Source of the DNA: Desmodesmus armatus
Lineage: Eukaryota; Chlorophyta; Chlorophyceae; Sphaeropleales; Scenedesmaceae
Reading direction: 5' to 3'
DNA: 64,000 nt
Assembly: GCA_007449985.2 (NCBI GenBank)
Contig: VIIQ02000836.1
Location: 62,001-126,000 of the forward strand
A model generated the notes under the pieces. That model searched no databases and was not told the DNA's origin. It saw nothing but the letters and a program-made list of their open reading frames with translations. Shown in pieces: positions 3,304-53,313 of this stretch. Position numbers and translations under genes: made by a program. Every line of letters starts with the position of its first letter. Position 1 is the first letter of the stretch.

Positions 3304-3337
<34 letters not shown>

Positions 3338-29037: not shown

Positions 29038-32000
29038 TCAGCACAGTGCTGGCCACATCCCCCCGGGGGCATGTGGCAGGCAGGGCCCTGCCTGCCCTCC
29101 AGGTATGTGCACCTCAATCACGCCATCATTGCCAGGCTGCAGCCCAAAAGTGATGGGCCAAGCCCTGCCCTGCCTATACTCAAAATCACGCTTCATGTCT
29201 TCAAGCCGGCTCAGCACAGCAGGCTTCACCCGTGGGACGTTGGCAGCACTGTGCAGGCCCTTGCCCATGATGATGCTGAAGATGACGCCGCCTGGGTGGA
29301 CCTGTGCCAGGTGCTGCAGGGGCTGGAGCTGCGCCTCCATGCTGCTCACAGCAGCCATGACTGTCAGGCCGTGCAGGTCCAGCTGGTGGCAGGCAGGGGG
29401 GTTGTGCACTGCCAGGGCAAGGCCGTCCGCCTGTGCGCGCCACGCCTGTGCGCTGTGGAAGGAGCCTGCCTGCTCGTGGGCCCGAGCTGTCTCATGCAGA
29501 GCGTCGATCCTGTGTACATGCAGTTCAACAGGCAGAGACAGCAAGCGGTGTGTTGGGTTTGTATGGTGTCCTGTAGCTGTTTGCCTTTGAAGCTGTGTTC
29601 AACACAGTGTTGTGAGTATGAGAAACCCTGGAGTACTGCGCGGCTCGTCCGCCGCGGACGTGTCTGACACTCCCAAGCCGTAAAATGCATTTGCTTCCTG
29701 TGCACAATGTCACCGTCACGCACACACAAGCCGGCTGCGTAACAAGCCACCCAAGGCACTTGTGCTGCACACTGGCATTATGTTTACCAGCCAGCTTGAG
29801 TGCAGGTGCATGGAACAGCAAGGCTATCTGCAGACTTACTCGAGCTTATCCCGGTGGCTGGCTTGGAACCTGTGCCAGGGCCAACAGAGCTTGCGCCGCT
29901 TTTCCTGTGCCTGTGGCTGCCACAGCTGGTCTGTGTACGCATCCGCTTCAAAGACACTCCTGCTCCTGCTGCCTGTGCTACTGCTGCTGCTGCTGCGATC
30001 TACAGGCATGCTGACTGTGGAGGGCTCAGCTGCTTGTGCTGAGGGCCCAAGCACCACTGTGGCAGCCGCAGCCTGACGCTCGTCAGCTCCCAGTGAGGAT
30101 GCTGATCTGTGCACACCTGCCTGCTGCTGCTGTTGTGCGGCACGCACCCCTGCTTGCTGACCGTCATCAGCAGCGCTAGCGTGCCCTGCAGCCTTTGCCA
30201 ACAGGCCCCTCACAAGCTGCAGCCCACTCTTACGCTCCTTGGGCCTGTTGAATGCCACAGCCTGAGGCCTGCCACCTCCCACTGCAGCTGCTGAGTTGTG
30301 CGCAGCTGTCTGCTGCTGCTTCTGTGCCTCAGACACCCCTGCTGGTTTCAAACCAAAAAAGTCACAATCACTGGGTGCACGCACTGCAGCCTTTGCTGCC
30401 GGGAACCTCACCACACGCAGGATGCGCCTGGTGCTCTTGCCCTTGCCCTTCTCAGGCCTCCTGGCTGCACAGGATGCACCCGCCTGTGCTGAGGGCCCAG
30501 GAGCCACAGTGGCAGCCACAGCCTGAGGCTCGTCACCTCCCAGTGAAGGTGCTGAGCTGCCCCCGCCTGCCTGCTGGCTCCTCTGTACCCCACCCACCCC
30601 TGATTGCTTGCTGCCTCCGCGCATGCGCTCTGCTGCTGCCTTGGGAAAGGACCTCATCACATGCAGTATGCGCCTGCCAGGGCCGCTGCTGGTTTTTGAC
30701 GACTGCTGCACCGGCACATTGGGCGCTGTGCTGGCAGCTGCCTGTGCTGAAGGCCCTGGTCCCACTGGCAGCGCAGCTTGGGGCTTGCCACTCACCAGTG
30801 CTGATGCTGAGCTGTGCACTGCTGCCTCTGGGCCCGGCTGTGTCTCACTCACCCCTGCTTGCTTGGCATCATCAAGTGTGGCAGCTGCAGCGGGCTGCAT
30901 GGATGGCTCTGCCGTTGACAGGGACCTCGCAGCATGGAACAAGCGCCTGCTGCAGCTGGGGTCTGCTGGCACCTGCTGCAGGGGCGCAAGGGGTGCTGCA
31001 CCATGCGCAGCTGCTGTGCAGGTTGCGGCTGCCTGTGCTGACGGCCCAGGTTCCACTGTTGCAGGTGCAGCTTGGGACTTGCTGCCGTGCAGTGCTGATG
31101 CTGAGCTGTGCACATCTGTCTCTGGGGCCGGCTGTGCCTCAAACACATCTGCTTGGTTGCTGTGAGCAGCTGCGCACACTGCAACTGCCTCTGACTTGGA
31201 CCTCACAGCACGCAGCACGCGCCTGCAGCTGGTGGTCTCTGCTGCCTGTGCCGTCAGTGACACCTGCTGTTGCACGGCAGCAATAGTGTTGGCTGCAGCA
31301 CCATTCTGCTGGGCCGCTGGATTGCTGCGCTGGCCATCACAAGAGAAGTGCGGCGGAGGGGAGAGGGGCAGGGGTGGTGCAGGAGACAATGCCAGAGGTG
31401 GTGGAGTAGCCAAGGGCAGAGGTGGCCAACATGGTGCAGGGCCCGACGCAATGGGCTGTGGCTGTGGCAGAGGTGAGCGCCATGTGGGGCCCCATGTCTT
31501 GCATGCTGGAGCCCATGTCACATGGGGTCCACCTGTTGGACCCCATGTTGGGCCCCAGGGTGGCCCCCATGGTGGAGGGGAGAGCGGCAGGGGGGGTGGT
31601 GGAGACCCCTCTGCCGCTGCCGCAGCTTTGGCCCTTGTCTCTGCCCAGGCTACAGCCGCTGCCACTGCCGCTGCCACTGCTGCTGGCAGCGCCTCAGCAT
31701 CCGAGTCTGCCGCTGGCAGCGCCTGGGCCTCTGCTGCAGGCAGCACCTCTGCCTTTGCTGCTGGCAGCGCCTCGGCACCTGCCGCTGTCTCTGCCGCTGC
31801 TTTCTCCTTTGGCTCAGCCGCTGCTTTCTCCCTTGGCTCTGCCGCTGCTTTGCCCCTGGACTTTGCTGCTGCTTTCTCCCTTGCGATTTCTGCTGCCGCT
31901 GTTTTCTCCCTTGGCTCTGCCGCTGCTTTCTCCCTTGGCTTTGCTGCTGCTTTGTCCCTTGGCTCTGCCCTTGCTGCTGCCGCTGCCTCTGCTCTGTGTT

Positions 32001-32940
32001 GCTTTGGTGGCCTTTCCAGCACCGCTGCCACGGTCAAGCCTGCCCGGGCCAGGTGGCGCTTGAAGCCTGCCATCACGCTGACGGTCTTGCGCTTGCGACT
32101 CAGGCCAGCAGCAGCTGGGCACCCTGGAGCTGCGCCAGCTGACAGGCTGTGCTGGCTGTTTGTACCATCTGCTGAGCTGGCAGCAGTGTCTTCTGCAGGC
32201 GCAGGAGAGCTGCAAGCCTCAAGGGTGCCTGCAGCAGCTGCCATCCTCTGTGCCCAGCTGGAGGCTGTGCCGATGGTCTGCACAGTGGAGCCCTGTGCTG
32301 CTGCCTTGACGAAGCCAGGCCTGCGCGTGCCCAGGACAGCACTGCTGCGTTGGATCTTGAATGGTGGCACTGGGAGGTGGCTGTCTGCTGGTGATGCCTC
32401 TTCTGCAAACATCTGCAACTGCGTGCTGCCTGCATCGCCATCCTGCAGTGCTGGCTTTGCTGTGCAGGTGGGTTGTGGCAAGTTGGTGATTGCCCGCAAT
32501 GCAGCAACTGGAGCCGAGGCTGCAGTTGCTGCCTCTCCACTGCACTGCCCAGCCTTTGCCAGCTGCTGCTGTCCAGCACTCCGCCTGCCAAGCCCCAACC
32601 GTCCAGCTAATGCACTGCTGAGAGCGCCCAGGGGGTTCTCCTTGTTGTGCTGGCTGCTTGCAGGTGCTGCACTGCGTCCTGCAGCTGTGCTGGCTGGCTG
32701 CATGCTGCCCTTGCCTACTGCCATGGAACATTTTGGCGGAGGATGTCCTGCAAGGTGAGTGCCTGATTTGCAAAGACCACTGCTGCTGCTGTTGATCTGC
32801 ATGCCAGCACGATGCTGCAACAGTCCTGCAGCACTGCTGCTGGATGTGCCGTGCTGGCTGCATTCTGCTGCTGCACGTGCCCTAGGCTTGACAACATGAC
32901 TGTCATCAGTTGCAGGAAACCTGGAACGGCTGCTAGGCAT
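29038..32940 (-). CDS. Smr-domain protein with long disordered N-terminal region
   Basis: Two exons, 32940-29840 and 29509-29038, join in frame (donor CTCGA/GTAAGT, acceptor CACAG/GATCGAC) and give about 1,190 residues. The C-terminus is a Smr domain: HQLDLHGLTVMAAV, then FSIIMGKGLHSAANVPRVKP with the conserved GKGLHS. Smr domains are nicking nucleases found in MutS2-type and RNA-binding proteins. A charged helical stretch just before it (DAYTDQLW... through AWRAQADGLA) resembles the DUF1771 helices that often precede Smr. The first 960 residues are low complexity: Lys/Glu/Ala repeats (KAAAEPREK) at about 320-400, a Pro/Trp/Gly segment with WGPTWGP units at about 455-500, and five imperfect repeats at about 560-990 (separate entry). 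The start is a true ATG at 32940. A substrate cannot be told from the sequence. Confidence 0.85.
29965..31240 (-). repeat. five imperfect protein repeats of about 65-95 residues
   Basis: Within the Smr protein a unit recurs five times. It starts with an Arg-rich motif of the form RRxLxxxR and is followed by an AGVxExQ-like segment, then SSASAL, PQA and a PGPSAQAA-like end. Units start near 31240, 30965, 30690, 30440 and 30235 on the minus strand. The spacings are about 90, 92, 82 and 69 residues. Examples of the first motif are CRRVLRAVRS, SRRLFHAARS, GRRILHVMRS and TRRILRVVR; the fifth copy is worn (SGLQLVRG). Confidence 0.8.
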
Positions 32941-34647
32941 TGGGCTGCTGTGGCCCTCTGGTGTGGCTTTGTCCTGTTGGCCTGTGCTTGGTGACGTTTG
33001 GTGCTATATTCCTGCAGGCAGAGCACCAACAGTTACAATCAGCACGTGAATTGCAAGCTGCAGGTGCTGCCTTTGTGCTGGCCTGAGGCCAAACATAGAG
33101 CAAGGTCAACGTCGTTTAGCTGACTGTATGGAAGCAAAACACGTGTGCTGATGCAGCACGGCTGTGCAAGGCATGAGTGCACCAGTGGTTTGGAACATGC
33201 CTTCACAGTGCCTTCACCTGTCCACCTATCGGTGCCGCCTCAAGCTCCTGGTAGAGGCTCAACGGAACCTGGCTGCATTCTTGCCTGTCTTCCTGATGTA
33301 ACCTTGGTAGGTGGTGGCGGAGGGCTGGAGCAGATGCTTGTATGCTGCTGCTTGGCGTGCTGGCTGGGATGTGCCTGGCTGTCCACACAGAATTCCACAC
33401 AGCTGTGCGCCACAACAGGAACCACCTAAACTCCTGAGAGCAAGCAGCACGTAAGCAACACGTACAGAGGGGATTTGAATAGGATCTCATGCTGCACCGA
33501 CTGGGCAGCTCGTGCTAAATGCAGGTGCCTGCATGTTGGTGGTCACCTGCTGCTATGCTGTGCTGCAAGGGAGGCCAAGAACAATCAAAGGCCTGCATAC
33601 TAGATGTGCGAGCTGCAGATGTGTTGCAATCACTGTCGTGGATGTTACAGTGGATACATGGGCTAATGCAGCTGCCTTGCTTGTACACAGTACGTACTGT
33701 GTTGTTGTCCTTGGACTGCTTCTTGTCACACGCCAAACCCTTGCGAAGTGCTTATCGTGGAAACGAATGTAGGAGAAACCAGCCTCCAGGAATTTGGAGC
33801 CGAATACGTTCTTTTTGACTTCAGCTGTCATTTTAGTCATTGTTCAGTTGGAGGTAACAGTTATAGGCCTAGGTCTGCACAACGACATATGGGGTGGATA
33901 GCTGCAGCAGCTTCAAATAAGGTAGATGGTCATATCAGCAGCAGTTCTATAGGTGAGTCTAGAACTGAGCAGTGCTGTGACTACATTCACTTCCAGTGCC
34001 TTGCACTGCTGCTGGCAACATCCACGCGGGTCTCCCACTGGGAATTCTCGCAACTGCAGAGGCACAGCAGATGTGTAGAAGGCCTTGCACCATCCAATAT
34101 ATGATAGAATAGGAGGGATAGGTCCAGCCTAAGTTTGCTGATCCATGAATCTGGACCGTTGGACCCAAAGGTCCCTTTGGGTCCCTGGTCGATGATGCCT
34201 GTTTATCCAGGCTGCTTGCCCAGAAACAGCTTCTAGTTCACTTCCTGTGTTACTGCCGCGTTTGTTCTTAGGGTACACACCTACGTATCGGTCATGGCGG
34301 TTACAACGGTCGTTGGTCCTGTCACTGCAGAACTAGCAAGCGCTGGCGTTTAAAATTCTTTGTACACTAGAATTTGCGCGAGGGCTCCCGCAGAAGGGCA
34401 CCGCTGTAGCTCCGGCAGGATCAGGCAGTGCGTCGCGGATGGACTCACTGCCTTCACAATACTACAAAAGCCCACCTTTGAAATAGAAAGAATCGCCTGA
34501 TTCAAGAAAAGGCTGGCGCGGTTCCCTGCTGGCCCTCAGCATCGGTAGGTAGAGAAGAAGCAATCCTGGACACCTCTCCTTCTCCTGGCTTCCACGCTAT
34601 AGCGTCTGTAACAGCTGGTGATGTGACCCCGTCTCCTGTTGCAGGAG
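32941..34647. promoter_or_regulatory. divergent intergenic region, Smr gene and glucan synthase gene
   Basis: No gene is supported in these 1.7 kb. The two flanking genes are transcribed outwards, so both promoters lie here. The short open frames have no recognisable domain. A perfect inverted repeat occurs at 34161-34184. Confidence 0.5.
34161..34184. repeat. perfect 11-bp inverted repeat
   Basis: GGACCCAAAGG and CCTTTGGGTCC are separated by two bases. It lies 464 bases upstream of the glucan synthase start codon. It could be a palindromic protein-binding site or a chance hairpin. Confidence 0.6.
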
Positions 34648-37600
34648 ATGGGAAGACTGCTGGCGCTCCTGTTGCTTTTTTGCGCTGGCGCAGGTCCCCT
34701 AGGGGTTGCGCAGGCCGCATCGCAGGAGGAATGGCGCTCGAGAACGATCTACCAGGTGAAGGCTCTCTTTACAGGCAGTGGCGAGGGCGTGCTTGGGACG
34801 GGTTCCCTGCAGTGAGCGTGCTCCCTGAAATTGCCAAGTTGGCAACAGGCTTGCTGTTTCAAAAGCAGCACGTTTGCTGAACTGCCGGGTGCCTGTATAT
34901 CCTGGCTTTTGCAGGTGCTGACCGATCGCTTTGCCACCACTGATGGGTGGGGCAGGCAGTGCAAGGACATCAAGCAGTATTGTGGGGGTACCTTCAGAGG
35001 TCTTGTGAACAGGCAGGACTATATCGAGGATCTTGGCTTCGATGCTGTTTGGATCAGCCCCATCACCATGCAAGGCGCTGACTCCATGCACCTCGCTGGC
35101 TACCATGGCTACTGGCCGTCCGATTTCTACCAGGTCAACCCCTCTTTTGGCTCGCAGCAAGATCTGAAGGCCCTAATGCAGGCATATCATGACAAGGGTG
35201 AGTCAGCACACCTGCTTGCGTGCCAAGTTTATGTGTGTGCGCACTGAGTCATGCTTGCATGCAGATGCCGGCGAGCTGCTGCTGACCACATGCTTGCCAA
35301 TCAGGTGACACAGCTGGCCTGACTAAGCGCATGCAAGTCAGCCTGTGATCAAGCACGCTTGTGCTGGCCGTGTGCTGACTAGTCCCTGCGCATCCGTGCT
35401 GGCACTTACCGAGTGCTGAGCATCATGCATGCTGGTGCCAGCTGCTAGTACACAGTATGTGCTGATCAGCCTGCGCCCATGCATTATGGTGCTGGATGTG
35501 TGCTGATCAGTCTGCACCCATGCATGCTGTGCTGGCTGTGTGCTCATCAGATGTCCTGGCCTGCCTGCTGTTGAACTGCTGCACGCATGAATCACAGGGA
35601 TGTACGTCATGTTTGACATGGTGATCAACCATGTTGGCTACGGCGACTACTCATCATTCTACCCCTTCAATTCTGCTGAGGACTTCCATGACTGCGAAGG
35701 TGAGACCCCTGCATTTGGCATGTGCACATTGGCGCTCACCAACAAGCATGCATGTTGACGTTGCGCGTGCCTACGAATGCAATCGTGACTTGGAGCACGT
35801 TGGACGTTGCAATGCGCACTGTTGCGCACTGTCAGCATGATGCGTGCTTATTCCAGAAACAGATATGTGCAGAGCATCCCAGATCCCACCCTAGTAGGGT
35901 GGGATCTGGGACACCATTAATAGTATCAATGGTGTCCTGGAAGTGCGCGCTGCCATATTTTGGCACGTCGTGTCAGGATCAGTGACCTCGTTGCACTGTG
36001 ATTGTCGCCCTCATCCCTTCTGTTCACCTCATGCAGGTTGCTATGGTCTTTACTGTGAGATCGGCTCATCAGGCCCGTTTGTCAGCCCCAAGACCGCCCA
36101 TGCCTTTGAGCACTGCAAGCTGTCCGGGCTGCCCGACCTGAACCACACCAACCCAAAGGTGCTGCGGCTGATGAAGGAAGTCTTCGACCACACCATGGCC
36201 ACCTATGCCCCCAATGCCCTGCGCTACGATGCTGCTGGCCACTCAAGCACGGTATGTTCACTGCTGTATGTGCTGCTGGCACTCTAATGCAGTATGTGTG
36301 CGCTTCAACCGTTTGCTGCGCTGCAAGGGCTTGCAGTACATGTGCTACATGGTGTCACGTTGGAAGGTGCCGGCTGGAAGCCACGGGTACACACGCTCCC
36401 AGCATGCCTTTTCTACCCTTTGGCCTGCATTGTGCAGGAGTTCTGCAGTGAGCTCACCCGCCAAGTTTCGAATTCAACCTGGACAGTTGGGGAGCTCTTC
36501 ATTGTCGACAACCCCCCTTTAGCAATGAAGGCCCATGCAGATTTCCTTCATCAGCAGGGTTCCCACAGCGTCTTTGCATTCCCCATGGCAATAGCAGTGG
36601 CAAAAGCATTCAGGGTGAGTGTGTTCAGCGCGCTGACAAGTGTGAGCTTCGGCCCTATGTATTGCACGTGTGTTGGTGTCACTGTGTGCTGGTGTCAAGT
36701 CGACAGCTCTCCCGCATTCCCCACCTGAGATCAACATGAACGAAATTGTCACTGTAAGTCACATGGTGAATCTGCCACAAAGTGGTGTGTGCCGCATGGG
36801 GCACTGCACCTGCCATGCCCCTGAGTAGAACATGGTGAATCTGCCAAAAAGTGGTGTGTGCCGCATGGGGCACTGCACCTGCCATGCCCCTGAGGTTGCA
36901 TGACCACACTGGCGCCTGCCGCTGTTGCTTCTTTGCGCAGGACAACCAGCCTGAGTATGACATGGTTTGGTTGTCCCAGCAGCGGTCTGCGTGGTTGGCC
37001 GTGATGGGTGACAGGGTGCACGACACCGTCACCTTCGCAGACAACCATGACCTGCCCCGCTGGCTTCACGCAAACTACAGCTCCATCTCCCGTTTCAAGT
37101 GAGTGCCCAGGGCAACCCGCTGAAGCGGTCTGAACAGCCTGGGGTGTGACCTGTGCGATGCCTCCTGTGGTCAGCACAGTCACTGTGCTGGCAACGGTTG
37201 CCAGGGCACCTTTGGAGGGGTGGAAGGTAGCCTACCGTAGGCTATCCGGGGCCAGTTGAACTGTTTAGCCCCTCGATCTCTGGAGAACAGGCTGGACAGG
37301 CTGTGTCCTAATGGATTCTGTGTGATAAGGAAGCGTGAGCCTTTCATGATAGGCACAGGAGTCGACGAGGGGACTGATAGACTAGACTAAACTGGCATAG
37401 GCCTTGAGAAGTCTGTCCTGCCTCAACTCAAGCCATACTCTGTAGAGGGAAGCTTCATGGATGGATCATGTACTGTAACTTACAAAAGGAAGCATGACTG
37501 ACCAAGCCAATCCACTAGGGACGACAAAGGTGACCAGCACCGAACGGCGCCAGCCTTTGATGAGCTTCACAGAGTTGACCCACATAACTGTCACACTCTG

Positions 37601-40600
37601 TCCCAAGGGTCAACTGACTGACCCACATCATCAATACGCCAGAATGCTCCCAAGATACTCACCAACATGATGTCTATTCAACACAGGGGAAGATGCTCTC
37701 CCAACAGAGCCTCTCCCAAGCCGCCTCAATCACTACATGCGGCTCCCTCTCACCAAGGCAACGCCCTCGTTGCCTGACGGCAGAACGGAGCCAAGGGGAA
37801 GACTCGCCAACACAGTAGAGACGTCGGAGGGATGCTGATCAACGGGCGGGTAACACCAAGTGCGTCAGACCACCGACCCGTGACACATGCATTGGACTGC
37901 AACTGAAAACTGCCCAAACTTCACCACAAGGCATAGGCAAGGACAAAGGATGCATGGAGCCTTTCATGATAGGCACAGGAGTCGACGAGGGGACTGATAG
38001 ACTAGACTAAACTGGCATAGGCCTTGAGAAGTCTGTCCTGCCTCAACTCAAGCCATACTCTGTAGAGGGAAGCTTCATGGATGGATCATGTACTGTAACT
38101 TACAAAAGGAAGCATGACTGACCAAGCCAATCCACTAGGGACGACAAAGGTGACCAGCACCGAACGGCGCCAGCCTTTGATGAGCTTCACAGAGTTGACC
38201 CACATAACTGTCACACTCTGTCCCAAGGGTCAACTGACTGACCCACATCATCAATACGCCAGAATGCTCCCAAGATACTCACCAACATGATGTCTATTCA
38301 ACACAGGGGAAGATGCTCTCCCAACAGAGCCTCTCCCAAGCCGCCTCAATCACTACATGCGGCTCCCTCTCACCAAGGCAACGCCCTCGTTGCCTGACGG
38401 CAGAACGGAGCCAAGGGGAAGACTCGCCAACACAGTAGAGACGTCGGAGGGATGCTGATCAACGGGCGGGTAACACCAAGTGCGTCAGACCACCGACCCG
38501 TGACACATGCATTGGACTGCAACTGAAAACTGCCCAAACTTCACCACAAGGCATAGGCAAGGACAAAGGATGCATGGAGCTGTTCGGCACGCACTGGCCT
38601 CCAGGTACAGCTAACAAAACCCGCATGAAAGCAAAGGAGAGATGAATGCCTAGCCTTCTGCAAAATGCAGTTCACCAATACCTACCACACCTTTGACCAA
38701 CCAACAACATCGATATCTGCTCACCTATCACAACACGACAAGGACACTTGCTCAGCACCAAGACATTTGCGCCAACTGACAGCGCAACTGACCTCATCAT
38801 AGATGGCGTACGCACAAAGATATCGCCACCATGTCTTGACACACTGTCACCGCTGCTGCTGTCTACAACTCAGTGCACAGCAGTCACGGCAACACAATCG
38901 TCGTCTCCAGAAATCTGACCACCCAAAGGCACTGCGACTGGGCACAAACATGCACTTGCCAGACACCATCTACTGGCAACCTTGCACAAGCACACAACAT
39001 CTCAGAAGACACACTGGCTTGCACTGCATGTACTACAACCTTTGCAGCCTGCATACCACTCAAGGCTGCAACAAGCCACGAAGTTGTCACCATTGTGCAA
39101 CCTGCAGAAGAACCGACCAAAACGCACAGCGCTAGCACACAACCCCAACAGGGCCATGCAATTGCGCTACTCCCTATCACAAGAGCGATGCTACTGCTCG
39201 TCGATGCCACTCACGCGATCCAGCGACTCGCGCCAGCCAAGCCAAAGTGCGATCGACACACGACAAGTACAACCATCAACCCTGCAAACACGCTGGGAAA
39301 ATCGCCAAAGTAGCCAACACACACAACATGAACCTCACAGCGCAAACCGGGGATGGCGACACTTGCGTTGCCATAGTGGACAAGCGGCAGGGCGCTAGGC
39401 CAACACGCCGCACTGTCACACTCGGACTGTCACACACGACGACAAAACGCCGATACAAATCCCTAGTACTTGCAAGAGTGCGACACGCTTAAAGAGCACA
39501 GCCGCACGAACAAGCTCGCATATCAGCACCAGGAACTGCAAAGCACTCAGCAGGAGGCAGATGTCGCTCTGCAGCAGACAACTTGAAAACCAAACTGAGT
39601 GTACCTGTGCTCACAATACAAACCAGCAACGAAGCACAAAACACACACCCAACTGCTTGCCAATTTTGAACACACCACTGCGCGCACCACGTCAACATGC
39701 AATCTAGGACTGCACAGGGTAGCTCAAGCACGCGACAATACCTTATCAAAGAGCTCCTCCAAAAGGCAGATGCCTTTGCCAACTGCGCCAACATGCACAA
39801 CACAAAAAAAAATAGGCTGACATGTGACTCACAGCCCAAACCTGTTAGGACCAGAAAATGATAAGCCATACTACCGTGGAACACATTGGCACTCTAGCCA
39901 CTGCAACAATCAGCGTCTGCACAAGCGTGTGCACAATACCTGAAGATGCAGCACGCCACTGATGCACATCAGCCAGATAAACTCACAGTGTACACCCGGC
40001 CATTGACTGTTGTCCCTAAGGAGGCAACACAAGCTCCTTGGCGCATAGGCCAGCACCCTGGCTTGCTTCACATGCACAGCCATGGAGTACACTTCCACAC
40101 GGCAGCCAGACACAGCCACACAAGACTGCCAAACACAAATCTCCTTCCTGTGTATACACACGTCAGCACACTGAAGGCATGTCAAGTAACCATGCAAAGG
40201 GCTTCAACCACACAAGCAGCTGAACTCTGTCCTCTCCACGTTGAGCTTGTCGGAATCGCCACAACAGTAAGCATACACAACTTTGACTACCATGCAGCCG
40301 ACATAGCCATGCTTGCAGGCGGTGTATTGCTTCTCAGCAAGAGGGCTCCAGCTGTCCTCCTTTGACTTCAACGGCCACGATGCAATGGCACTGACAACCT
40401 CACAACCAAAACACCACAAGAATTTGGTCTCTGCATCACACATACATCATCCCAATGCTGCCACGGCTTACAGGAACACCGATGCAGCCTTCATCACACA
40501 CTGGAACTGACAACATCAGCACACAACAACATCCATGCAACTGGCAACCATCGCTCTGAACAACTTCTACAGAGCTTCTGCTTCAGACCACAAAGACCAC

Positions 40601-43600
40601 TTCATTGGTTGTAATAGAAACACCACAGACATGGCTTGCACAACCACCACTCTTGCACTATCAAGACTTTCACGGTGCAGATGCCTCTGTGCCACATACT
40701 GGAGTGCACACAAGAACTCGGGGGTCACCCACAAAGTCAGTAGCACTACCACAGCATGAGCAACCTTGTCACATGCCCAGGGCGAAAAGCCACACAAGCA
40801 TGGACCTCTGACTCAGTGCAACCACGCAGGTCAACAGAATAACACACAGACAACCAGGCGGTACCTCCACCACACCGGGATTCAACCAATGCCCGCCGAT
40901 ATAGACCGTAAAGGCGTTGAGGAGGGTGCGTGCACATATTGCAGCCATGACAAGAGAAACACCTGGGGCCAGCAGGTGGGCTTCTCTCACTCACAAAGAG
41001 TCATGCGCTGTGTGCCATGAACGGGCCCATGCACTGGAAAGTCTGGTACTTGCTGAACAAAGCACTCCGCAATGCAACCCCATAACTTGACACATGCGCC
41101 AGCGACTTACGAGGGTATGCATGCGAGCCTCATACACCAGGCGCGACCTGATGCTACTGCGGATTGACACCTGGCTCTTGAGCTTGCGGGGGACTAGCCT
41201 ACACCACAATGAGCCACCACTGGAACACCACAGCACCACCACAAGGACAACTAGGGAGGCAGAACTGTACTTCGCTCACGCAACTCCACCTAGTGCCTTC
41301 CAACATCGGGGACTGTGCATCTCACACCCGGCGCCCTGTGTGCTGTGTTCCTCTCCCATGTCAGAGCAAGGCATTCTCCAAAACAATCACACACTGAACA
41401 CACCAACATTCAAGCAACAGCACATGCTGACCACCGTCACAAGGGACACATCATATTGAGCGCCATACTGCTAGCAGCGCTGCTTGCACCAAAGACACAA
41501 CCACACAAGCTTTCTGCGCACCTGCAGTGCAAGTCCAGCGCCTCACACTACAGCATCCAAGCAGCACACATCTTGCACATAAGAGCACATCAAAGCAACA
41601 GACAGCACAAGTGAGTCCAATCCACTGCATGTGGCGCTGCTCTGCACTCATGTAGCTTGCATGCGCAGCTGAAAATGCTTAGGCCTGCTGCCGTGCACAA
41701 AGCACAAACACTCTACCACAGGAACCACAGGAACAAGGAAACATGGATCTGACAGCTGACAAAACCACTGGCTGACAAGCCCAGTAGCTGCCTTTCACAT
41801 GCACTGTCAGGGCAGAAGGGCTGAAGCACAAGCCAGGCCAGACATAAGCCTTCAGGCAAGGCAAGGCTCAACAGCAGGTGACACTACAACCTGGGGCAGA
41901 ACCTGACACAACACACAGACACACAACTGTGTGGCAGGGGGAAACACCTCACTGCTTCATGTGTGCAAGAATACTGCCTACACCCAGGAGGGGAAATGCT
42001 CAATCCACACTGGAGAGTCTCATGGAAGGTAGAGGCATGCAGCAAAAACCATTCCGACAGCAGCTCACTGTAGCAATCAACATGCTCCTCCAGCACGTGC
42101 TTGCTGCCACTGTACCCAGCAACTGCAACTGTGCTTGCTGATACTGCTCCTGGCAGTTACTGTCTCATTTTCACTGCAGCTCCGAGCACGCGCTGCACTT
42201 TGAAGACGCGCTGCTTACAACACACACAGACGCTTTGTCCTCCTTACTTGTCCCATCGGTCAGTCGAGCATTGCTGTCCTCCAGAAACGGTACTGCTGTC
42301 CCACACCAGCAGCTTCGTCGTTTGCCAACAGGGGAAACTGCCTAGCAAACACCCGTCGTTCGCCCATAGAAGAGCAAACAAATGCCATGTCTCCGCTACC
42401 ACTGAACTGTTTAGCCCCTCGATCTCTGGAGAACAGGCTGGACAGGCTGTGTCCTAATGGATTCTGTGTGATAAGGAAGCGTGAGCCTTTCATGATAGGC
42501 ACAGGAGTCGACGAGGGGACTGATAGACTAGACTAAACTGGCATAGGCCTTGAGAAGTCTGTCCTGCCTCAACTCAAGCCATACTCTGTAGAGGGAAGCT
42601 TCATGGATGGATCATGTACTGTAACTTACAAAAGGAAGCATGACTGACCAAGCCAATCCACTAGGGACGACAAAGGTGACCAGCACCGAACGGCGCCAGC
42701 CTTTGATGAGCTTCACAGAGTTGACCCACATAACTGTCACACTCTGTCCCAAGGGTCAACTGACTGACCCACATCATCAATACGCCAGAATGCTCCCAAG
42801 ATACTCACCAACATGATGTCTATTCAACACAGGGGAAGATGCTCTCCCAACAGAGCCTCTCCCAAGCCGCCTCAATCACTACACCAGTTCATCAAGCGGC
42901 ATTTCGGGTTCTTGGGGGCTTCTTCACTGCCCATGGGGCCCCATGCCTGCCGGCTCAGTCAGTCTGATAAGATAGTCCAAGACCCTAGGAGACACAGCTG
43001 GGCAGATGCTGCCAGCGACGCCGCGTCGGACGTTCCTGGTGTTTGCCATATCCTTATCTGCTGCTGCACTGCTAATTTGGTGGTGCGCCTGCAGGAATGC
43101 CCTGGCTTACACGCTGTTCACGGAAGGTGGGTGCTGCCTCGGGCATGGAGCACAGGGCATCAGCCTGGTACCCAGTGCTGTGCACTGGCTGAGTCATCCT
43201 GCTACTTTTGGCTTTGGTTCCAATTGGGCCTGCTGACAAAGACAAGCTCTGCAAGAGCCTAACCAGCATCTGAGGGTGTGCCACCACCCTCAGCAAGTGG
43301 CAGCATGACGTGTTGAGCCACACAACCCTGACGTGCTGCTTGCTGCCTGATGCCTGCAGGTATTCCTGCCATCTACTACGGCACGGAGCAAGGCTTCAAA
43401 GATCCCCACCCTTTCCGGCCTGACCCCAGAGAGCCCCTGTGGCACAGCGGCTACAGCCATGACCACCCCCTGTGGCTCTTCCTGAGGATCTCCATATGGT
43501 ACCGCAAAGCGGCACGCACATGGAACTCTGGCATTGCCCAGCAGGTGTTTGTCGACCACTCCACTCTTGTGCTGGCGCGCGGGGACTTTGTGCTGGTGCT

Positions 43601-46600
43601 GAGCAATGTGGATGAGTGGGAGTGTGAAAGAAGGATCAAGCAGAGCGGCCCCTTTGGTGTGCACACGCTGCAGGGCCCTTTACCTGAGAGGTTTAGGGAC
43701 AAAACACTCACCAACATCTACAACATGCAGGTGCGTTCTGTGGATATGCAGCCATGCCACATATGTGGCAGAGTATGCATACCTGCTCACCCTATGTCTG
43801 CTTTCTGGGTTGCAGTGCGCCAGATAGATCAACAGCTGCATTGTGACAGACCATATGCCTGCTCAGCCCTCGTCAGATAGCCGGCTGCACTTGCAGACAT
43901 ACAGGCAAGCGGACTGCACCGTGCGCCGCAGCGCCGCTGATTCAAGACTGGTGCCGCAACGACAGTGTGCATCACCACTGACCTGTTGTGGTTCCGCATG
44001 CTGATTCCAACAGGACACGCTGGGTGTCAGCACCGGTGGTGTGGGACTGTACACACCAGATGCTCGTGGTGAGCCTCAGGTGTATTACTTGGGCCAAGTC
44101 CTGCCTCCTGGAAGTTTCTACAAGCCTGCACGTCAGGTGAGGGTGAGGTGTTTGCATAGGAAGCCCTACCGGCTGGTGCTGCTTGTGCTTGTTCTTCTGC
44201 TGTGGCAAACGATGTTGTGCTGGAAGGTGACAGTTAACCCATAACTGGGCTAGGCAAAAGCACCCCTTGGCTTTGTACTGCCACAACTTATGCTTGGGGC
44301 CCCCAATGCTGCTGGGGGTTGGCCCGTTGGAAAGCCAGGACCACAAACTACCTGCCTGTGCGGTCAACCTTGGTCAAACATTGACCAGGGTTTAGCTATG
44401 TGGGTTCAAACACCGCCTGGTTTGCACAAAATGGCCTTCAAAACAGGAGCTGGCCCTGTTGTACTGCTCAATGGGGTGGGACCACTGGTGCCACCCTGCA
44501 GTGCTGCAGTCCTTGAGGTAGTGCAACATAACAAACATCCATAACCTACTAAACCCTGCCGAGGCCCTACGGCCAGAGGCCCTGAACTCACAAGGCACCT
44601 TTGACCAGTCCCAGTACACCCTGTTATGGCAAGTTTGCTTGGCACTAAAGCACCCCAGGCGTCAGTTTGATGTTGCTCATGACCTTTATATTGTCTTCGG
44701 TTAGTCAGCATACGCTGCATGTGCGGACTGCAGCAACAGCACTTGCCATCAGCAGCAACATGGACAAGCTACTGAAAGAGCGCTTCATCGCTTTGTGGGC
44801 CCTTTTGCAGATGATCAAAGCTATTTTGCTTATGTTTGATAGCATATCGTGTACTGTGAGCCTGAAACAGAGTCACGGGCCACCATCTCGATCTTCTACA
44901 ACCCACTGCCCAACGCGATCAGACTTCAAGACCAAAGATTGTGAATTCAACCCTACGGTATCTTTTAAGGACATCAGTGCGTGCTGCAGAGCCAAGGCAG
45001 GACATATACAGTCGCTGTCCATGTTGATGGCTCCTGCTGGCACTTGCTGCCAGTGCCCCGCCAAGTCAGCCAGAGCAGGCATACAACAGCAGCATGGTAC
45101 CATCATACATTTATTCTGAGGCTGCTGAGCCATTGAATCACCGTGCAGGCACACTTTTGACACTGCTGCCAGCATCAGCCAGCCGACCCACAGAACCCTG
45201 CTCCCAAACAGGGCCACAGACAGGGTTAGACGACGGGGCTAGGGGTCCCACCCAGCTGAGGAGCAGCAGCATGAACCAGGTCAACCTTTTATGGGGTGCT
45301 GTGGTGTAGAAATGCCCGGCACTTTGGAAAACTTTGCATGACAAGGCACTGGGTAATATATTACCCGGAGGCCCACTTATGGGTTAAATCGCGCAATCTA
45401 TCTGATAGCCAAAGCAGCACCTGACAAAGCAGGCACTGGCACTGTGTATGGCCGGCATGACAGACAAGCCCTGGGGGCGCCTGCACTGAAGTCTACGAAT
45501 GAGCGTCTGCATTCGACCACCAGCCATGCCATGATGACTGCTTGCTTGCAGGCACGAACAGTGGCATCGACTGCGGTATTTGTTGCCTTCCTGGTGGCCT
45601 ACGCCCTGCTGCCCCTGGCAGCGGCGTATCTGCACCTCCTGAGGCGGGACTCTTCCCCCGCCCCTGAGCGCACAATACCCCTGGCATCTTTTGGTCCCTC
45701 CCGCACTGAGAGCAATTACTCTGCCAGTGCCGGCAACCAGGCCCGTGCTGGCTCTGGCATGTTGCGAGTGGACAGCAGGGTTGCTCTCCTGCCTGTGACC
45801 ATTGCTACGGTTCAAGGGTTGGGCGTGGTGCCTGCAGCTTGTGCTCACCCAGCGAGCCCTTCGTCCTCAAGCAGCACCCTGCAGGGCAGCCACCGCGTCC
45901 ACTGGCAAGCCCCTGACAACAGCATCAGTGCTTCACGCCGGGGTAATGCTGGCGTCCATGTCACGGTCATGCCTGACAGTGCCCCAGCTACGCCAGAGCG
46001 CACGCCCCCTGCTGCTGCTAGTGCCAGTGCTGCCAGTGCAGGCAGCTGCATGACAGGCACTGCCAGCTTTGTTGCAGGTCAGGGTAACAGCATCAGCAGC
46101 ATGCCTCGCCTGCGTCTGCACCCCAGCAGTGCTCCCCTGTTAGGATCCGGAGCCTCCCCGTTCTCTCTGTGCCAGCAGTACGCCGACCAGGCCAGCGATA
46201 CCAGCATCAGCAACGACCAGCAGGCAGCGCCCAAAGCAGCGCTGCACAGCTCATCCAATAATGCTCAGCGGGTGCCACACCTGTGTCAAATGTTGCAGCA
46301 GTCAGTGGCGGCAGGGGGTGCCCAGCACATCGATGATACAGAGGCAACAGCAGCCACTGCCTCCATGGCCAGCGAAAGCTGCTGCACACACGGGGACAGT
46401 GACAGCTGTGTGGTGGACTTCGACCCGCTTGAGGAGAACGCCAGCCAAGCCTCAAACACAGATTGGGTGTCCTCTTGGCAGCTTAGAGTGGATGCAAGAG
46501 AGGACAGCGAGGATATTGCTGCGGCTGAATCTGTCTCATCACCACTGCAGTGCTACACAGCTTCTGACTCAGAAATCCCACAAGACCAGGACCCAGTGCG

Positions 46601-49600
46601 GCACAGTTCTGGCCTTGTGGGAGGTCCGCTGGGCAGGTTCCAGGAGGCCTGGCACACTGTGTGAGTTGTCATGAGCTGTGGCAAAAGTCCATCTGAACAA
46701 GGCATGCGTGCGCACAGATGTACACTGCAGTGACTACCATGATGGAGCAACATGCTTCAACTTGATTTGCGCACATGCATGCAAGCCCTGATGTGGTGAG
46801 CCCTTCATTGGCTTACTTGCCCACCGGGAGTGTGCTGGTGTCATGCTGTGGGCTTACATGCCATGTCAGTTGCCCATGTCATGTTGCGCTCTGTAGGGGT
46901 CGCTCCTTCTCGAGGCAGGCGCTGCCAGCACCACCAAGCTTCGTTCCTACCCGCAGCCCCATCCTGCACGTAGCCCTGGAGTACACGCTTCCCCATGTGG
47001 CCAGCAGTCAGCTGATGTACGGGGGCATGGGCCTGGTGGTGGACACCTTCCTGCAGGTGCGGGGTGCTTGCGGTGATGGTAAAACACAGGCAGAATAATA
47101 CACAGTGGCTGCTGTCCACGCGTGTCCATGCCAGCGTACATGCAGGCTGTGCTGCTTGACTCAAGTCGGACTGCCACAGTGCAAGTGAAGAGCTAAAAGA
47201 TGGGCATTGCAGGGTGAACCTCTGGAGACTGTCGCAGGCCTGTCCTGGCGTGTGTTGTGTTTAGAGCACACCCTTACAGTTTCTTATGTCTTATGGCTGC
47301 CGTTACAGCATTGGTGCGGACCATTGGCCTTGTGTGCCCCTCTGTACAAGCCCTGTTATGGAGGTGGGTGAGCTTGAGAGATCAGGCCCTGCACACGAAG
47401 CTCGGACAGGCGAGCTTGATATGTTGCAACACAATTGCAGGGCGTCCTGCCGGCTATTGCATGCACTGTGCAGGAAGCATTGCTCGCAACATCATGGCTG
47501 CCTGTCCTGCTGCTTGCAACGTACAGTCGTTCAGAACATGCTGCGCCGGCCGCATGTTGTAATTGCTTGCCCTATGCATGACCCAATTATTGACGGCTGC
47601 GTGCGCAGGTGAAGGTGATGACCGGCCCTTCTTCATCCCTGCCTCTCAGCCCCCGCTGCTGAGCCTGACAGTGGATGTTGCCAGGGGCTGGCAGCTGCCT
47701 GTTGAGGTCTTCAAGCTGCAGGCTGAGGTGCAGGATGGACCTGCAGCAGGACAGCCACGCACCTACTACCTCATACAGAGCGACATGTTCAGGTGAGAGG
47801 CACAGCCTTGGTTGAGGGAGCCGATTAAGTGGTGGTCGCTGATGACTAACAGACAAGTGCACATTGATATTGTGCAGACTACAAAGCTGAGCGCACTGTG
47901 TGACTGCGCATGCTGCCTGCGTGTCCGCAGGAACCGCAACCGTGCTGGGCTGTACAATTTCCAGGATGAGTCAGAGATGCTGACATGGCTGGCGGTGTTC
48001 AACAAGGCTGTTGCAGCTGTTGTGGTTGCTGAAGGCTACCAGCACATGCAGCTGCATGACTACCATGGTGCGTTTGCAGTGCGTCATCTCCCTGCAGACG
48101 GGCTGTGAATTGGGGATCAGCGTAATATGCCCTGCACTCAAAGCACTGGAGCGAGTTGCGCAGTTTTTGCATGCGGGTCTGCCTACCTATTTTCCTCACA
48201 AAGCACAAATCTGAATTGCCACATGCTTTCCTGCAGGTGCCCTGAGTCTGATGTACATGCCCCAGGAGCTGCGCCCGGCAGTGATGTATGTGGCACACAA
48301 CGCACACTATGACGCCCGCTTTGCCATCCCCACACCTTCACGCAAGCACCAGGTGTGCTGAACAGTGTCTGGCAGCTTTGGCTGCTTGTTTCAAGGGGTA
48401 CATATAGCCAAATACAGGGTGATGTTGATGCCAGGCAGCGGCTTCTGTGTTTCTGCTTGGGCTGCTGCACTGCTGTCCCGCCTTAGGTGTAACTTGCTTG
48501 ATACATGCTAAAAACACTGTCTGCATGCTGCTCCACTGGCAACCCGTTACAGGTGTATAAGCTGCTGAACCTCACCCCTGACGCGTCCACATACATAGAG
48601 CACAACGGCAGTGTGGACATCTTGAGGCCTGCCGTGGTGCACATGAGGAAGCATCAGCATGGAGAGGGGGTGGTTGCAGTCTCACCAAGGTATATGAATA
48701 GGCGCATGTTCGCTGAGGCCAAATGCAAGCCAGATTCACCTGGACAAACTCTGTACAACAGTTATCCTCATGAGTGCTGATCAGGACAAAGCCTGCCAGT
48801 GCTGTTGGGGCCCTGCTGCTATCAATCACAGCGTGCAAATGTGTTTACGTGTAGGTTGGCACCACTGCTTCGCTCAGGCAGAGAACCCTAGACGCAGGTT
48901 GTGCCACAATCCAGTGGCGGAAGCAACACTGTGCCTTTGTCTGTTCTGCAGGTATGCCAGGCAAGTATCGAAGAAGCTGAGCTGCTTCTGGGACCTGGCC
49001 CCCTACGGCCGGCCCGGCCACATCATTGGCATCCTCAACAGCCTGGACATGAAGGACAGCCTGGCAGCAGCAGGACTGAGCCTGGGCGAGGTGAGCCTGA
49101 GTTGGCGTGAGCGTGTGAGGGAGAGAAGGCAGCAGGACATTATGCCTGCTGCCTTCTCATCCGATGTGTCATGTGAGTTTGGCATTGTTTCTATCACTGA
49201 TGTCAGAATCCACTCCGGAGTACCACGGTGGCACTATAACCACCATAATGACACAGTCGCTGTAGGCAATGCGCTTACTGCCAGCCTTTGCAGAGCAAGG
49301 TTGGAGCTCAAAGAGTCTGGAGCTCCGAGCTGCAAGCCGCTGAACAGTTTGTACTGCTGCTGTCCTTGGTTGCTGTCAGGTCTTGAGCATCAAGGCTGCT
49401 GCCAAGCGCAGGCTGCAGTCCCAGTACGGCCTGGCTGTGGGGGAGCAGTACAGCTTGGCTACCTTTGTGGGCCGCATGACGCAGCAGAAGGGGTGTGACG
49501 TCATTGTCGAGGTGGCTGCTGCGCTGATGGCTAAGCACCCACATCTGCAACTGGTCGTGCTGGGACCGTCAGGTGCGCGCTTGTGGCAACAGCTGTGTCG

Positions 49601-52600
49601 CAGCGCGTGCACTGCAGTTTTTGCTTGTACAAAATATGGCTGGAATGGCTCATGGCGTGTTCACGCTGTGTTAGGACTTGACGTCGGGTCTGCAAACATT
49701 GTGTAGGACTCCTGACGTGTCTTTCTCTGAACTTGGGCATTGTTGGTGGTTCTATCTGCAGGCGACCCTGTTGGCGGGGCAGCTGCGCGGCGCCTGTGGG
49801 AGCTGTCTGCCGCCCACCCTGACCGCATGCACTGCCCCGTGGATCACTACGTGTCAGGCCCTGAGAAGGAGCTGCTGCTGCAGGCCACTGACTTCTGCAT
49901 GCTGCCCAGCCGCTTTGAGCCATGCGGGCTGGTGGACGTGGAGTTTGCCTGGGTGGGTGGGCTGACAGGGCAGCTCGTCACCCTGGCACGCTTGTGTTCG
50001 TCAAAGTTTTGAAACTTGCATATGTCCCATATCGTGTGCTTGTCATGCCATGATTACTGAGGGAACAACAAGCACAGCGTGCGTGTTTTGGGGCCACTAA
50101 CCACTTCATAAGAGACCAAAGACGTAAGTTGCATGTGTTTGTCTGTGTCTGCAGAATGGGTCCATCATCATTGGCCATGACACTGGGGGCCTTGGCAAGA
50201 TGCCTGGGTAAGTCCACATTTGAGTTGGCATTTTTGTCCAGTGCTGCCATGTCCTCTTCAAGAGGCACATCCTGCTGCGCATATCTCGGGTTTCATTGGT
50301 ACATTAACCCCATGTGTTGTTGCCTGGGCTAATTTGAACTTGAAGCAGCTTGTAGGGAATGGCGTTGGTCGGTGCTTTGCATTGAATTGGGCTGCCCGTC
50401 ACTTTTTGTGTCATGCAGTGTGTACTTCACTGCCCAGGCGAGCCACCTGGAGCACCTGGCGCGGAAGTTTCAGCAGTCTGTAGACAAGGCCATGGGGCTG
50501 TCAGTGCCTGAGCGACACAAGCTGCAGGAAGCCGCACTTGCACGTCGCTTCCCTGTGGCCAACATGATGCAGCAATATGCCGATGCCTGGGTGAAGGTGG
50601 GTGACTGTGAGAAGCGTGATAGCCTGCCCATGTGGAGGGCTGTACACGTGATGCTGCTGCTCGCTAGCCACCAGACTTACTTGGGCCTGTTGTCACAAAC
50701 AAACTCCGTGCCACCTTGAAAGGTTGTCATACATCAGGTTTTGGCCAACCATGGTTTGTCAATAGCACCATGCAAATGCTGTCCAACCATAGAGGCTGCT
50801 TTTGCTCTGCATGCAGGTTGACAGCAGCTGCACCAAAGGGCAGGCATCCAGAGTGGCTGTCCACAGACGCATGGCCCGCCAGATATCCTTCCATGCTGAT
50901 GCCTGGAGCCGCTGTAACCAACATGGCCCTGCCAGCACAGCCCTGCAGTGACCTCATCGCTTCCCCCTGCCAGCAGCATCGGCACCACCAGCCAATTCCT
51001 GACAGAACCCAGCAGCAACAGCGACGGCTGCAACCCCTGCGTCATCAACCAAGGCTTGATCAAGTGCTGTGAGATGGCAACAGCAGAGACCCCAGGCGCC
51101 CAGTCCTCACGCAACCAGCGTGTGTCCAACAGCCTGATGGTTGTCCTGCAGCCCTTGAGCCTTGGGCCAGGCATCCTGCTGCTGAGCTTCCTGCTGCTGC
51201 ACGAGGTCATGGTGGGCTCCAAGCACAGGGTCGGGCTGTATCTACCAGACCTGGTGTTTGGTCTGCTGCCTTACCACATCAGCATGACGGGGCCGCTGGT
51301 CATGGCCTTCCTTGTGCTCAGCACAGGTGAGAGCGCTGGTGCCAAAAGGCAAGGCCTGGTTGGGTTTTGACATGTGACATTCTGTGCTGGCACCAAATGG
51401 TAAAATTGCAGGCATACCCGGTGAAAGACTGCGAGCAGTCAGACAGTTTGTGGGCGCTCTCACAGACGCAGTGAATGTGCAGTGCACAACGCTACCTGAG
51501 TCCCTCTCCCACCTGCTGTGCCACTTGATGTCTGGTTGGCTGCAGTTGCTGCTCCCCTGTGGTTCTGGCTGGCGGCACGCCTGCGCCCGTCAACCTACAT
51601 CCGCATGGCTGCCGCCCTCGTCAGCATCTCCTTTGCGCTGGCCTTCATAGCCCTGCAACTCACCCAGGTGTTCAGCATAGCCGTGGGGCTCACAGCGGTG
51701 ACAAACCTGGTGACCTGCCCCTTTCTCAGCCTAGGCATGCTGGGCGAGGAAGGGGTGGATGTCTTCAAGGTGAGATCCTGCCATGGGCCTCGTACTAGTA
51801 CAGTACTTTTTGTGTTGTGCGGTCAGCACAGCTTTTTTCCCAACTGTAAAGCATCCAAAAGTTGGCGGTTGTGCATGGCATCTAAGTGGCTTGTCGAGGC
51901 TAGGTTGACCCAATCAACACCGAGTGCTTACTTTCTTGGCTTCCGCTCCTGCCGCACAACCCTCAGGTTGGTCGCAACATGCTGGCCCTGAGTGAAAGCA
52001 CCAAGTACGGCCTGCTGGCAGCATGCCTGGCCATTGCAGCAGCAGCCACTGGGCCCCTGCCACACCAGGTTGTGGGCGGTGTGCTGCTGCTGGTGTCCGG
52101 CTGCATCGCCCTGTGGATCTGCAGCCCCGGCTGCCTCAGTGACGCCTACAGGCACATGAACCTCACACTCAGGGGCCAGGGAAGGTTCCTGCGACACCTC
52201 AGGTGGGTGTGACTGCAGGACGACCTCTGTTGCTGGCTGAACTGACATCATGCATCAGTTCGCCCTCGAGTCCAAGTTGTGTGGGTAGCTTCAATTTTCC
52301 TCGGCAGGCTGTAACCTGCTTGAACGCACAGCACAGGTTTGCACCAGGTTGTTCTGCAAATGAACACCTGGCATAGTTCTCGTCTGACATGCCTTCTGTG
52401 ATGCTGTCGCTGTGTATGTCACCCACAGTTGCTTCTGGCTGAGCCTGGTTGCTGGTGCCTGCGACAGCCTGACCATGGTGCTCAACGGCTTCCTGCTGGT
52501 GGTGGTGACCAAGAGCCTGGGGCTGCTGGCCACCTTCCAGGTCATTGCCTTTGGCTGCAGCGCTGCTGCAGTGCTATGGAACTGGCAGGTGCTGTGCAGC

Positions 52601-53313
52601 CGGACCGCTGAGCTGCGCCTCAACAAGGCCGTGCTGCTGCTGGCATGCCTCCCCTTCTACCAGGCTGCCAAGGCTGCTGTGCTGCTGGCTCCACTGCCGA
52701 CAGGTGGGAAGAACAGTGGTGGTGCACGTGCTCACCCTGCTAAGTCATGCAATGATTGCCTGCTCAATAACGTTCACTATGCTTTCAGGACACTGAGGCC
52801 TGTAGCAGTGGGCACTGCATGTCCTGACAACCACTGACTGCCGTTGTGGCTGCAGGTGTGATGCTGGGTGTGTGTGCTGGCCTTGATGTGCTGCTGGCTG
52901 GCAGGAGCAGCATCCTGGGCCTGGCGGGCTTTGTCACACTGCCGTCCCGCGAGATCGTTGCTATTTGGCAGTTTGCTGGCATTATGGTTGGGTCAGGTGA
53001 GCTACTGGATGGAGAAATTGTGCACAAATTTCTCACACTTGCTCACCTGTCATGGCGTATGTAGATGGTCAGATAAGTTCCACACCCCACAGATGCACTG
53101 CCAGCTGTCAGTAACCTCTCCGCTGTGTTGCTGCTGTCCTCTGCAGTTGAAGGCATCTTGTTGCTGGGTTGCGCTTCTGCCAGCATCCTATCTGGCATCC
53201 TGTGGAGCCCTTGGGTGCTGTTTTGGGTGATTGTTGGGTTCGAGGGTCTGAGGGCAGTGGTCATGGTCGCTTTCGCCAAGCTTTGGCCCCAAGAGAACCT
53301 GTCTTCACCATGA
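34648..53313 (+). CDS. AGS-like: fungal-type cell-wall alpha-1,3-glucan synthase homologue (GH13-TM-GT5-multi-TM)
   Basis: In fungi this enzyme (Ags1/Mok1) makes and exports wall alpha-1,3-glucan. About 28 exons: 34648-34755, 34915-35197, 35598-35699, 36037-36251, 36438-36614, 36941-37098, 43095-43126, 43360-43730, 44014-44136, 45552-46660, 46897-47056, 47535-~47595, 47609-47792, 47931-48067, 48237-48352, 48553-48689, 48952-49090, 49380-49572, 49762-49952, 50155-50207, 50419-50596, 50817-51326 (with a frame problem), 51501-51769, 51967-52202, 52429-52703, 52856-52996, 53147-53313. Order: signal peptide MGRLLALLLLFCAGAG, amylase domain, transmembrane helix near 525-550, Ser-rich linker, GT5 domain from about 893, then 12-14 helices. 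Phases agree at all but two junctions. The ATG at 34648 is fixed by the signal peptide followed by WRSRTIYQVLTDRFA. Intron 6 is about 6 kb because of an LTR element. The protein, about 1,900 residues, is shorter than the roughly 2,400 of fungal enzymes. Confidence 0.93.
35459..35550. repeat. approximately 41-bp tandem repeat, glucan synthase intron 2
   Basis: The segment beginning GTGCTGATCAG recurs at 35459 and 35500, and as GTGCTCATCAG at 35540, with CCCATGCAT in each full unit. That gives a little over two copies. Confidence 0.7.
35878..35937. repeat. two adjacent perfect hairpins, glucan synthase intron 3
   Basis: Hairpin one, 35878-35910, has perfect 15-base arms (CCCAGATCCCACCCT and its complement) around a 3-base loop. 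Hairpin two, 35909-35937, has 10-base arms (GGACACCATT and AATGGTGTCC) around nine bases. They overlap by two bases, so the two structures abut. Confidence 0.9.
36761..36896. repeat. 69-bp tandem duplication, glucan synthase intron 5
   Basis: Two head-to-tail copies start ACATGGTGAATCTGCCA at 36761 and 36830. They share the core GTGGTGTGTGCCGCATGGGG and end CCATGCCCCTGAG, with about one internal mismatch by eye. Confidence 0.92.
37257..37737. repeat. left LTR, 481 bp
   Basis: It begins TGAACTGTTTAGCCCC and ends CAATCACTACA. It matches the right LTR base for base as far as I can follow by eye. It is followed directly by TGCGGCTCCC of the internal region. Confidence 0.95.
37338..38577. repeat. 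620-bp tandem duplication of LTR plus leader
   Basis: The unit 37338-37957 is followed immediately by a second copy at 37958-38577, each beginning GAGCCTTTCATGATAGGCAC and ending AAGGATGCATG. The unit covers the last 400 bases of the left LTR and 220 bases of leader. Most of the LTR thus occurs three times in the element. Confidence 0.95.
42403..42883. repeat. right LTR, 481 bp
   Basis: It has the same sequence and length as the left LTR. It is followed by the second copy of the 5-bp target duplication CCAGT and then by host intron sequence that leads to exon 7 at 43095. Confidence 0.95.
46897..50596 (+). other. cytoplasmic GT5 glycogen/starch synthase-type domain of the glucan synthase
   Basis: Exons 11-21 encode a two-lobed synthase. 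The N lobe has HVALEYTLPH, MYGGMGLVVDTFLQ, LQLHDYHGALSLMYMP-like sequence, YVAHNAHY and GVVAVSPRYARQVSKK. The C lobe has FVGRMTQQKGCD (Arg and Lys that bind the sugar nucleotide phosphates), MLPSRFEPCGLVDVEFAW (catalytic Glu region) and GHDTGGLGKMPG. The order and spacing follow the Ags1 type rather than plastid starch synthases. One oddity is that the Lys of the usual KxGG loop is Met933. Confidence 0.92.
51121..53313 (+). other. C-terminal polytopic membrane domain of the glucan synthase
   Basis: Six coding segments encode about 12-14 hydrophobic helices. Examples are GPGILLLSFLLLHEVMVG, AAALVSISFALAFIALQL, VVGGVLLLVSGCIALWIC, LNGFLLVVVTKSLGLL and WVLFWVIVGFEGLRAVVMV. In fungal alpha-1,3-glucan synthases the equivalent C-terminal domain is proposed to carry the polymer across the plasma membrane. 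The stop codon at 53311-53313 follows LWPQENLSSP. Confidence 0.88.

Follow-up and report, generated by a model that had tools for sequence, protein, structure and literature searches.

A single gene joining amylase, synthase and membrane domains in the green alga Desmodesmus armatus

Could a green alga carry, in one gene, the amylase, synthase and membrane parts that fungi join in their alpha-1,3-glucan synthases, and if so, what would such a protein do? The question is raised by a locus of Desmodesmus armatus on the + strand at 34648-53313 of a 64,000-nucleotide stretch of DNA (the window, C789:62001-126000 of a 115.8 Mb assembly in 831 contigs), which the first-pass annotation had read as an alpha-1,3-glucan synthase of fungal architecture. 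In the text consulted on Schizosaccharomyces pombe Ags1, the outer part of the enzyme is described as GH13 amylase-like and the inner part as glycogen/starch synthase-like, and the substitution E1526A abolishes alpha-glucan staining; in a model for Aspergillus, offered as speculative, chains are made inside the cell, leave through the multi-pass domain and are linked by transglycosylation once outside (PMC5753165). For the green and red algae whose genomes were available at the time, the portion consulted of a glycosyltransferase survey assigns GT5 to starch synthases only (PMC3797821), and the portion consulted of a review on the extracellular matrix of green algae mentions neither alpha-1,3-glucan nor a glucan synthase (PMC10762512). 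The literature searched, mostly as titles and the opening lines of abstracts, yielded no green-algal enzyme of this kind.

A fused gene and its two paralogues

The gene, termed A here, begins with an ATG at 34648, and its stop codon ends at 53313. Its model, built from the reading frame and GT-AG signals, comprises 27 exons and 26 introns, with GT-AG borders at all 26 introns, every junction in phase and no internal stop, and gives a coding sequence of 5655 nucleotides (nt) including the stop and a protein of 1884 amino acids. The exons lie at 34648-34755, 34915-35197, 35598-35699, 36037-36251, 36438-36614, 36941-37098 and 43095-43126 (exons 1-7); 43360-43730, 44014-44136, 45552-46660, 46897-47056, 47309-47363, 47609-47792 and 47931-48067 (8-14); 48237-48352, 48553-48689, 48952-49090, 49380-49572, 49762-49952, 50155-50207 and 50419-50596 (15-21); and 50936-51326, 51546-51769, 51967-52202, 52429-52703, 52856-52996 and 53147-53313 (22-27). 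One boundary was chosen, the start of exon 22 being set to 50936 because the acceptor at 50817 leads into a stop.

Protein A opens with a signal-peptide-like start (amino acids 1-23, 34648-34716; hydropathy peak at amino acids 4-22), a hydrophobic beginning common to all three copies of the gene described below, and continues into a GH13 amylase module with its C-domain (amino acids 24-523, exons 1-9, 34717-44136). This module is recognized by PF00128 (amino acids 36-375, E 4.5e-43), by its likeness to amylases in the PDB and by the catalytic residues D229, E255 and D332, all of which are kept. About 100 amino acids lie between the amylase core and a single helix (amino acids 532-550, 45576-45632, hydropathy 2.31) directly followed by HLLRR. 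A Ser/Ala-rich linker that spans intron 10 (amino acids 553-904, 45639-46930; 17% Ser, 15% Ala) then leads to a GT5-type synthase module (amino acids 905-1407, exons 11-21, 46931-50596), identified by PF00534 (amino acids 1224-1351, E 3.1e-11), by PF13692 (E 2e-7), by similarity to glycogen synthase 3d1j and by a clade of its own; residues R1234, K1239, E1319 and E1327 are present, and PF08323 was not found at E up to 1. The protein ends in a polytopic module recognized by hydropathy, with 12 hydrophobic segments (amino acids 1476-1871, exons 22-27, 51140-53271), and weaker hydropathy peaks lie within the enzyme modules at amino acids 421, 1042 and 1192. The existence of a fused amylase-synthase-membrane gene is thus confirmed. 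The start, end and unity of the gene given by the first-pass annotation all hold in the spliced model, as do its succession of signal peptide, GH13, helix, GT5 and polytopic domain and its complete set of GH13 catalytic residues; its 28 exons become 27, and the junctions, which it had found nearly all in phase, prove to be so throughout.

Two further copies share this domain order. Copy B (C789:143554-130454) lies on the same contig as A just beyond the window, inverted and tail to tail with it, and copy C (C666:120153-111003), on another contig, is a distant one; the contigs concerned measure 345 and 531 kb. When the genome was searched with the synthase and membrane parts, the membrane domain was matched only at A, B and C, and the remaining matches, at least five on four contigs, were brief stretches of synthase similarity at loci for starch synthases, these counts being lower bounds. 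Identities between A and B are 83.0% in the GH13 core, 90.9% in the GH13 C-domain, 88.5% in the synthase and 92.1% in the membrane domain, the corresponding values for A and C being 47.8%, 48.1%, 59.5% and 47.9%. The model of C is wrong at the helix exon and uncertain past the synthase, and its helix and linker values are disregarded; the comparable helix stretch of C nevertheless has an open frame.

The 27 exons of A pair one to one with those of B at 66-98% DNA identity, while 25 of the 26 introns average 58% identity in aligned columns. In this comparison one exon is counted where the automatic model of B, with 28 exons, places a 45-nt intron within exon 18. Ratios of non-synonymous to synonymous substitution (dN/dS, Nei-Gojobori) between A and B are 0.194 for the GH13 core, 0.203 for the GH13 C-domain, 0.212 for the GT5 module and 0.29 for the membrane domain, and reach 0.545 in the linker, higher than in the folded domains. 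The folded domains of A and B are therefore under purifying selection, and the retention of exons beside diverged introns, taken with these ratios, argues strongly for a single gene that is fused and functional.

Kinship of the amylase and synthase halves

The amylase half resembles secreted amylases at large. In the PDB it matches 251 sequences at E up to 0.001; the 60 of them listed belong to the amylases and their relatives, and amylases lead that list (best E 2.3e-62). It is 34% identical over 424 amino acids to 6sao (E 2e-65) and 32% identical over 422 amino acids to 6sav. The catalytic D, E and D and this amylase-wide similarity are traits of the secreted GH13 alpha-amylases, and the likeness is to Taka-type enzymes (GH13_1). 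These are free enzymes, whereas the frame of A runs on into the helix and synthase, placing its amylase at the N-terminus of a membrane synthase. As a lead only, a fungal Ags amylase region, used in an approximate sequence not drawn from a database, aligns with A over only 87 amino acids (31%, E 5e-4) and is closer to 6sao (126 amino acids, E 5e-8) than to A. Plasmid records give 522 matches to the amylase half, with identity no higher than 30.1% among the 20 listed.

Within the alga's own genome, an amylase-like locus on another contig (C73, L028, about 1395-5181) agrees with A at 147 of 409 aligned positions (36%) and shares intron column and phase with A at two places and with C at three. 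Its model is unreliable past about amino acid 345, and neither the synthase part nor the membrane part has a match on that contig. The shared introns and the similarity to secreted amylases together suggest that the amylase module probably came from a resident secreted-amylase family. Because a resident gene would probably have supplied this module, protein A is probably a mosaic rather than an unaltered version of the fungal enzyme.

For the synthase half, the nearest solved structures are GlgA and starch synthases, with glycogen synthase 3d1j best for A (E 9.1e-21) and 6gng reached at E 4.5e-22 by a profile of A, B and C; none of its 54 PDB matches at E up to 1 is an alpha-1,3-glucan synthase by name. 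The genome already has ordinary GT5 matches on nine contigs, and the first-pass annotation had proposed a tree to see whether the synthase half belongs among plastid starch synthases. It does not fall among the six of the alga's own that were included: with 100/100 support, A, B and C stand apart from these and from seven bacterial sequences. The branch between them measures about 3.5 changes per column, divided by the drawn root into 2.75 and 0.8. The tree was drawn without the own loci L035 and L038, whose models contain frameshifts and stops, and the unmodelled L037 and L040.

All three copies keep the residues equivalent to H161, R300, K305 and E377 of Escherichia coli GlgA and differ from it at K15, D21 and W138. 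The K-x-G-G-L-x-D start of the starch synthases is altered, with M or I at K15 and L or M at D21, while K and D are kept at these positions in the three own starch synthases aligned. Because the K15 position is replaced, use of the nucleotide-sugar donor may differ. Homology and the H, R, K and E residues are common ground with the starch and glycogen synthases (SS/GBSS, GlgA), from which A, B and C are set apart by their separate clade, altered start motif and fusion with an amylase and a membrane domain.

The GT5 region of a fungal Ags, again in an approximate sequence not drawn from a database, finds C at E 2.6e-57, B at 4.5e-48 and A at 4.7e-48, with the next best match at 7.4e-16. In a tree that includes it, it joins A, B and C at 100/100, where long branches meet; like them it has Y at W138 and E at Y385, but it has K at K15. 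Because the fungal sequence is approximate, a relationship between the synthase half and fungal Ags is treated as a lead only. No relative was found among 23 pattern stretches in prokaryote genome contigs, where the pattern GGLG[QK]MPGW had no match, nor among 36 pattern stretches in viral contigs, where a second motif was likewise absent and none of 8 motif stretches matched better than E 0.47. Plasmid records give 485 matches to the synthase half, with identity no higher than 30.0% among the 25 listed.

Introns, host genome and surroundings

Of the first eight introns, which lie in the amylase part, seven agree between A and C in position and phase, six of them column for column and one shifted by a single column; only 2 of the 18 later ones do so (p about 4e-4, one-sided Fisher test worked by hand), and C has far fewer introns in its synthase and membrane parts. 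On one reading, an amylase with introns and a synthase poor in them would have been fused before the duplication that gave A and C, and further introns gained afterwards; on another, C would have lost introns with a 3' bias, as is known to happen. Both are put forward as leads, since the model of C is weak past the synthase. The first-pass annotation had described the gene as introner-rich. At the level of the two copies and the window that description finds no support: when the 52 introns of A and B were compared, similarity was seen only at the same A-B position and none between different positions (E 1e-4), and the introns of A other than intron 6 do not recur elsewhere in the window (E 1e-6). 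Intron 6 (37099-43094, 5996 nt), which lies outside the product, holds three identical 300-nt direct repeats starting at 37337, 37957 and 42483 that look like a mobile-element insertion, and the matching intron of B is 997 nt long.

The host can be read from other loci. Contig C612 carries rbcS in three separate pieces, and the modelled own starch synthases start with KTGGLGDV or KVGGLGDV. With these markers and with the copies placed on contigs of 345 and 531 kb, a green-algal genome is well supported and fungal contamination is unlikely. The view that this is an old resident gene, for which the first-pass annotation had appealed to introners, is supported by the three diverged copies.

Elsewhere in the window, whose family scan took in the positions after 24400, a reverse transcriptase domain (57345-58097, - strand, PF00078 E 7.2e-28) lies between copies A and B. 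A piece of an acyltransferase domain (26812-27012, - strand, PF01553 E 8.9e-8) is present, as is an open frame of 1055 codons rich in Ala, Ser and Pro (29836-33003, - strand), which has no Pfam match at E 0.01 and may be either a gene or a chance frame.

A proposed mechanism and its rivals

Protein A is most likely an alpha-glucan synthase/exporter, probably at the plasma membrane; its linkage and its part in the wall are inferred. We think it reasonably likely that this is a membrane protein working like fungal Ags1 and encoded by an intact nuclear green-algal gene. On this proposal the GH13 part would lie outside the cell and the synthase part in the cytosol, where it would draw on a nucleotide sugar to polymerize glucose; export of the chain would fall to the polytopic part, and the GH13 part would trim or join chains at the surface to give an alpha-glucan of wall or mucilage. 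The product may be alpha-1,3-linked, alpha-1,4-linked or mixed. Held more tentatively, at a little under an even chance, is the fuller proposal that these proteins form a plasma-membrane class of the chlorophytes' own, which arose when an Ags-type synthase/exporter fused with a resident secreted amylase, was then duplicated, and makes an undescribed wall or mucilage alpha-glucan.

Several observations weigh against the synthase/exporter proposal. The C-terminal third of protein A has no Pfam family at E up to 1, and a short fungal membrane-domain fragment, of approximate sequence, does not match the C-terminal domain. The linker of A has a hydropathy peak at amino acids 600-618 that, if it were a helix, would put the synthase outside the cell; copy B has a gap and polar residues at that stretch. 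The M or I found at K15 stands against the K of both the starch synthases and the approximate fungal sequence. Finally, B and C each carry one apparent frameshift in the membrane domain, in B where exon 24 is one nucleotide shorter than in A and breaks the frame, in C near the first membrane segments; frames are open on either side of both, and an assembly indel fits them as well as recent decay does.

The alternative that survives best is an alpha-1,3-glucan synthase of truly fungal type, acquired whole by descent or by transfer, with its amylase half since diverged or swapped and alpha-1,3-glucan as its product. The order of signal peptide, outer GH13, helix, inner synthase and multi-pass domain is the same in A as in the account consulted of fungal Ags1 (PMC5753165), and the approximate fungal GT5 region groups with A, B and C at full support, as a lead. 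Against it, the amylase half is of the ordinary secreted type, matching such amylases widely and the approximate fungal amylase only over its short stretch, again as a lead; it shares intron positions with the separate C73 locus; and long branches meet where the approximate fungal sequence joins the tree. Fungal Ags proteins are longer than A, at about 2400 amino acids, with extra modules between the amylase core and the helix. We regard this alternative as unlikely, though it deserves more weight than those that follow. The fungal reading of the first-pass annotation thus stands in its domain order, its single fused gene and its synthase outside the six own starch synthases compared, and gives way over the amylase half and the introners.

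A membrane-bound variant of the storage pathway, that is, an enzyme with an amylase built in that makes a starch-like alpha-1,4-glucan and has no wall role, would agree with glycogen and starch synthases as the closest solved structures and with the four GlgA residue equivalents that are kept. We consider it improbable, given a signal-peptide-like start and membrane segments, a clade separate from starch synthases and a genome that already has its ordinary GT5 loci. Very improbable, too, is a family in decay, its copies becoming pseudogenes: the frameshifts of B and C and the 6-kb intron insertion with repeats in A could be read that way, but A is intact, dN/dS between A and B is 0.19-0.29 in the folded domains, and an indel of assembly explains B and C equally. 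That two adjacent genes, one for a secreted amylase and one for a membrane synthase, were merged only by the model, split at 44.1-45.5 kb, is unsupported and scarcely probable, since the long intron 9 of A between exons 9 and 10 (1415 nt) that might suggest it is matched by one of 302 nt in B and of about 0.2-0.3 kb, judged by eye, in C, all three copies keep the order, and there is no stop and no new start needed.

If the proposal of a membrane synthase/exporter is true, a green alga builds and exports an alpha-glucan by means of one fused membrane protein, which bears on the walls and mucilage of algae and on the origin of amylase-synthase-exporter fusions. An amylase half of non-fungal ancestry would suggest that the mechanism needs an amylase beside the synthase.

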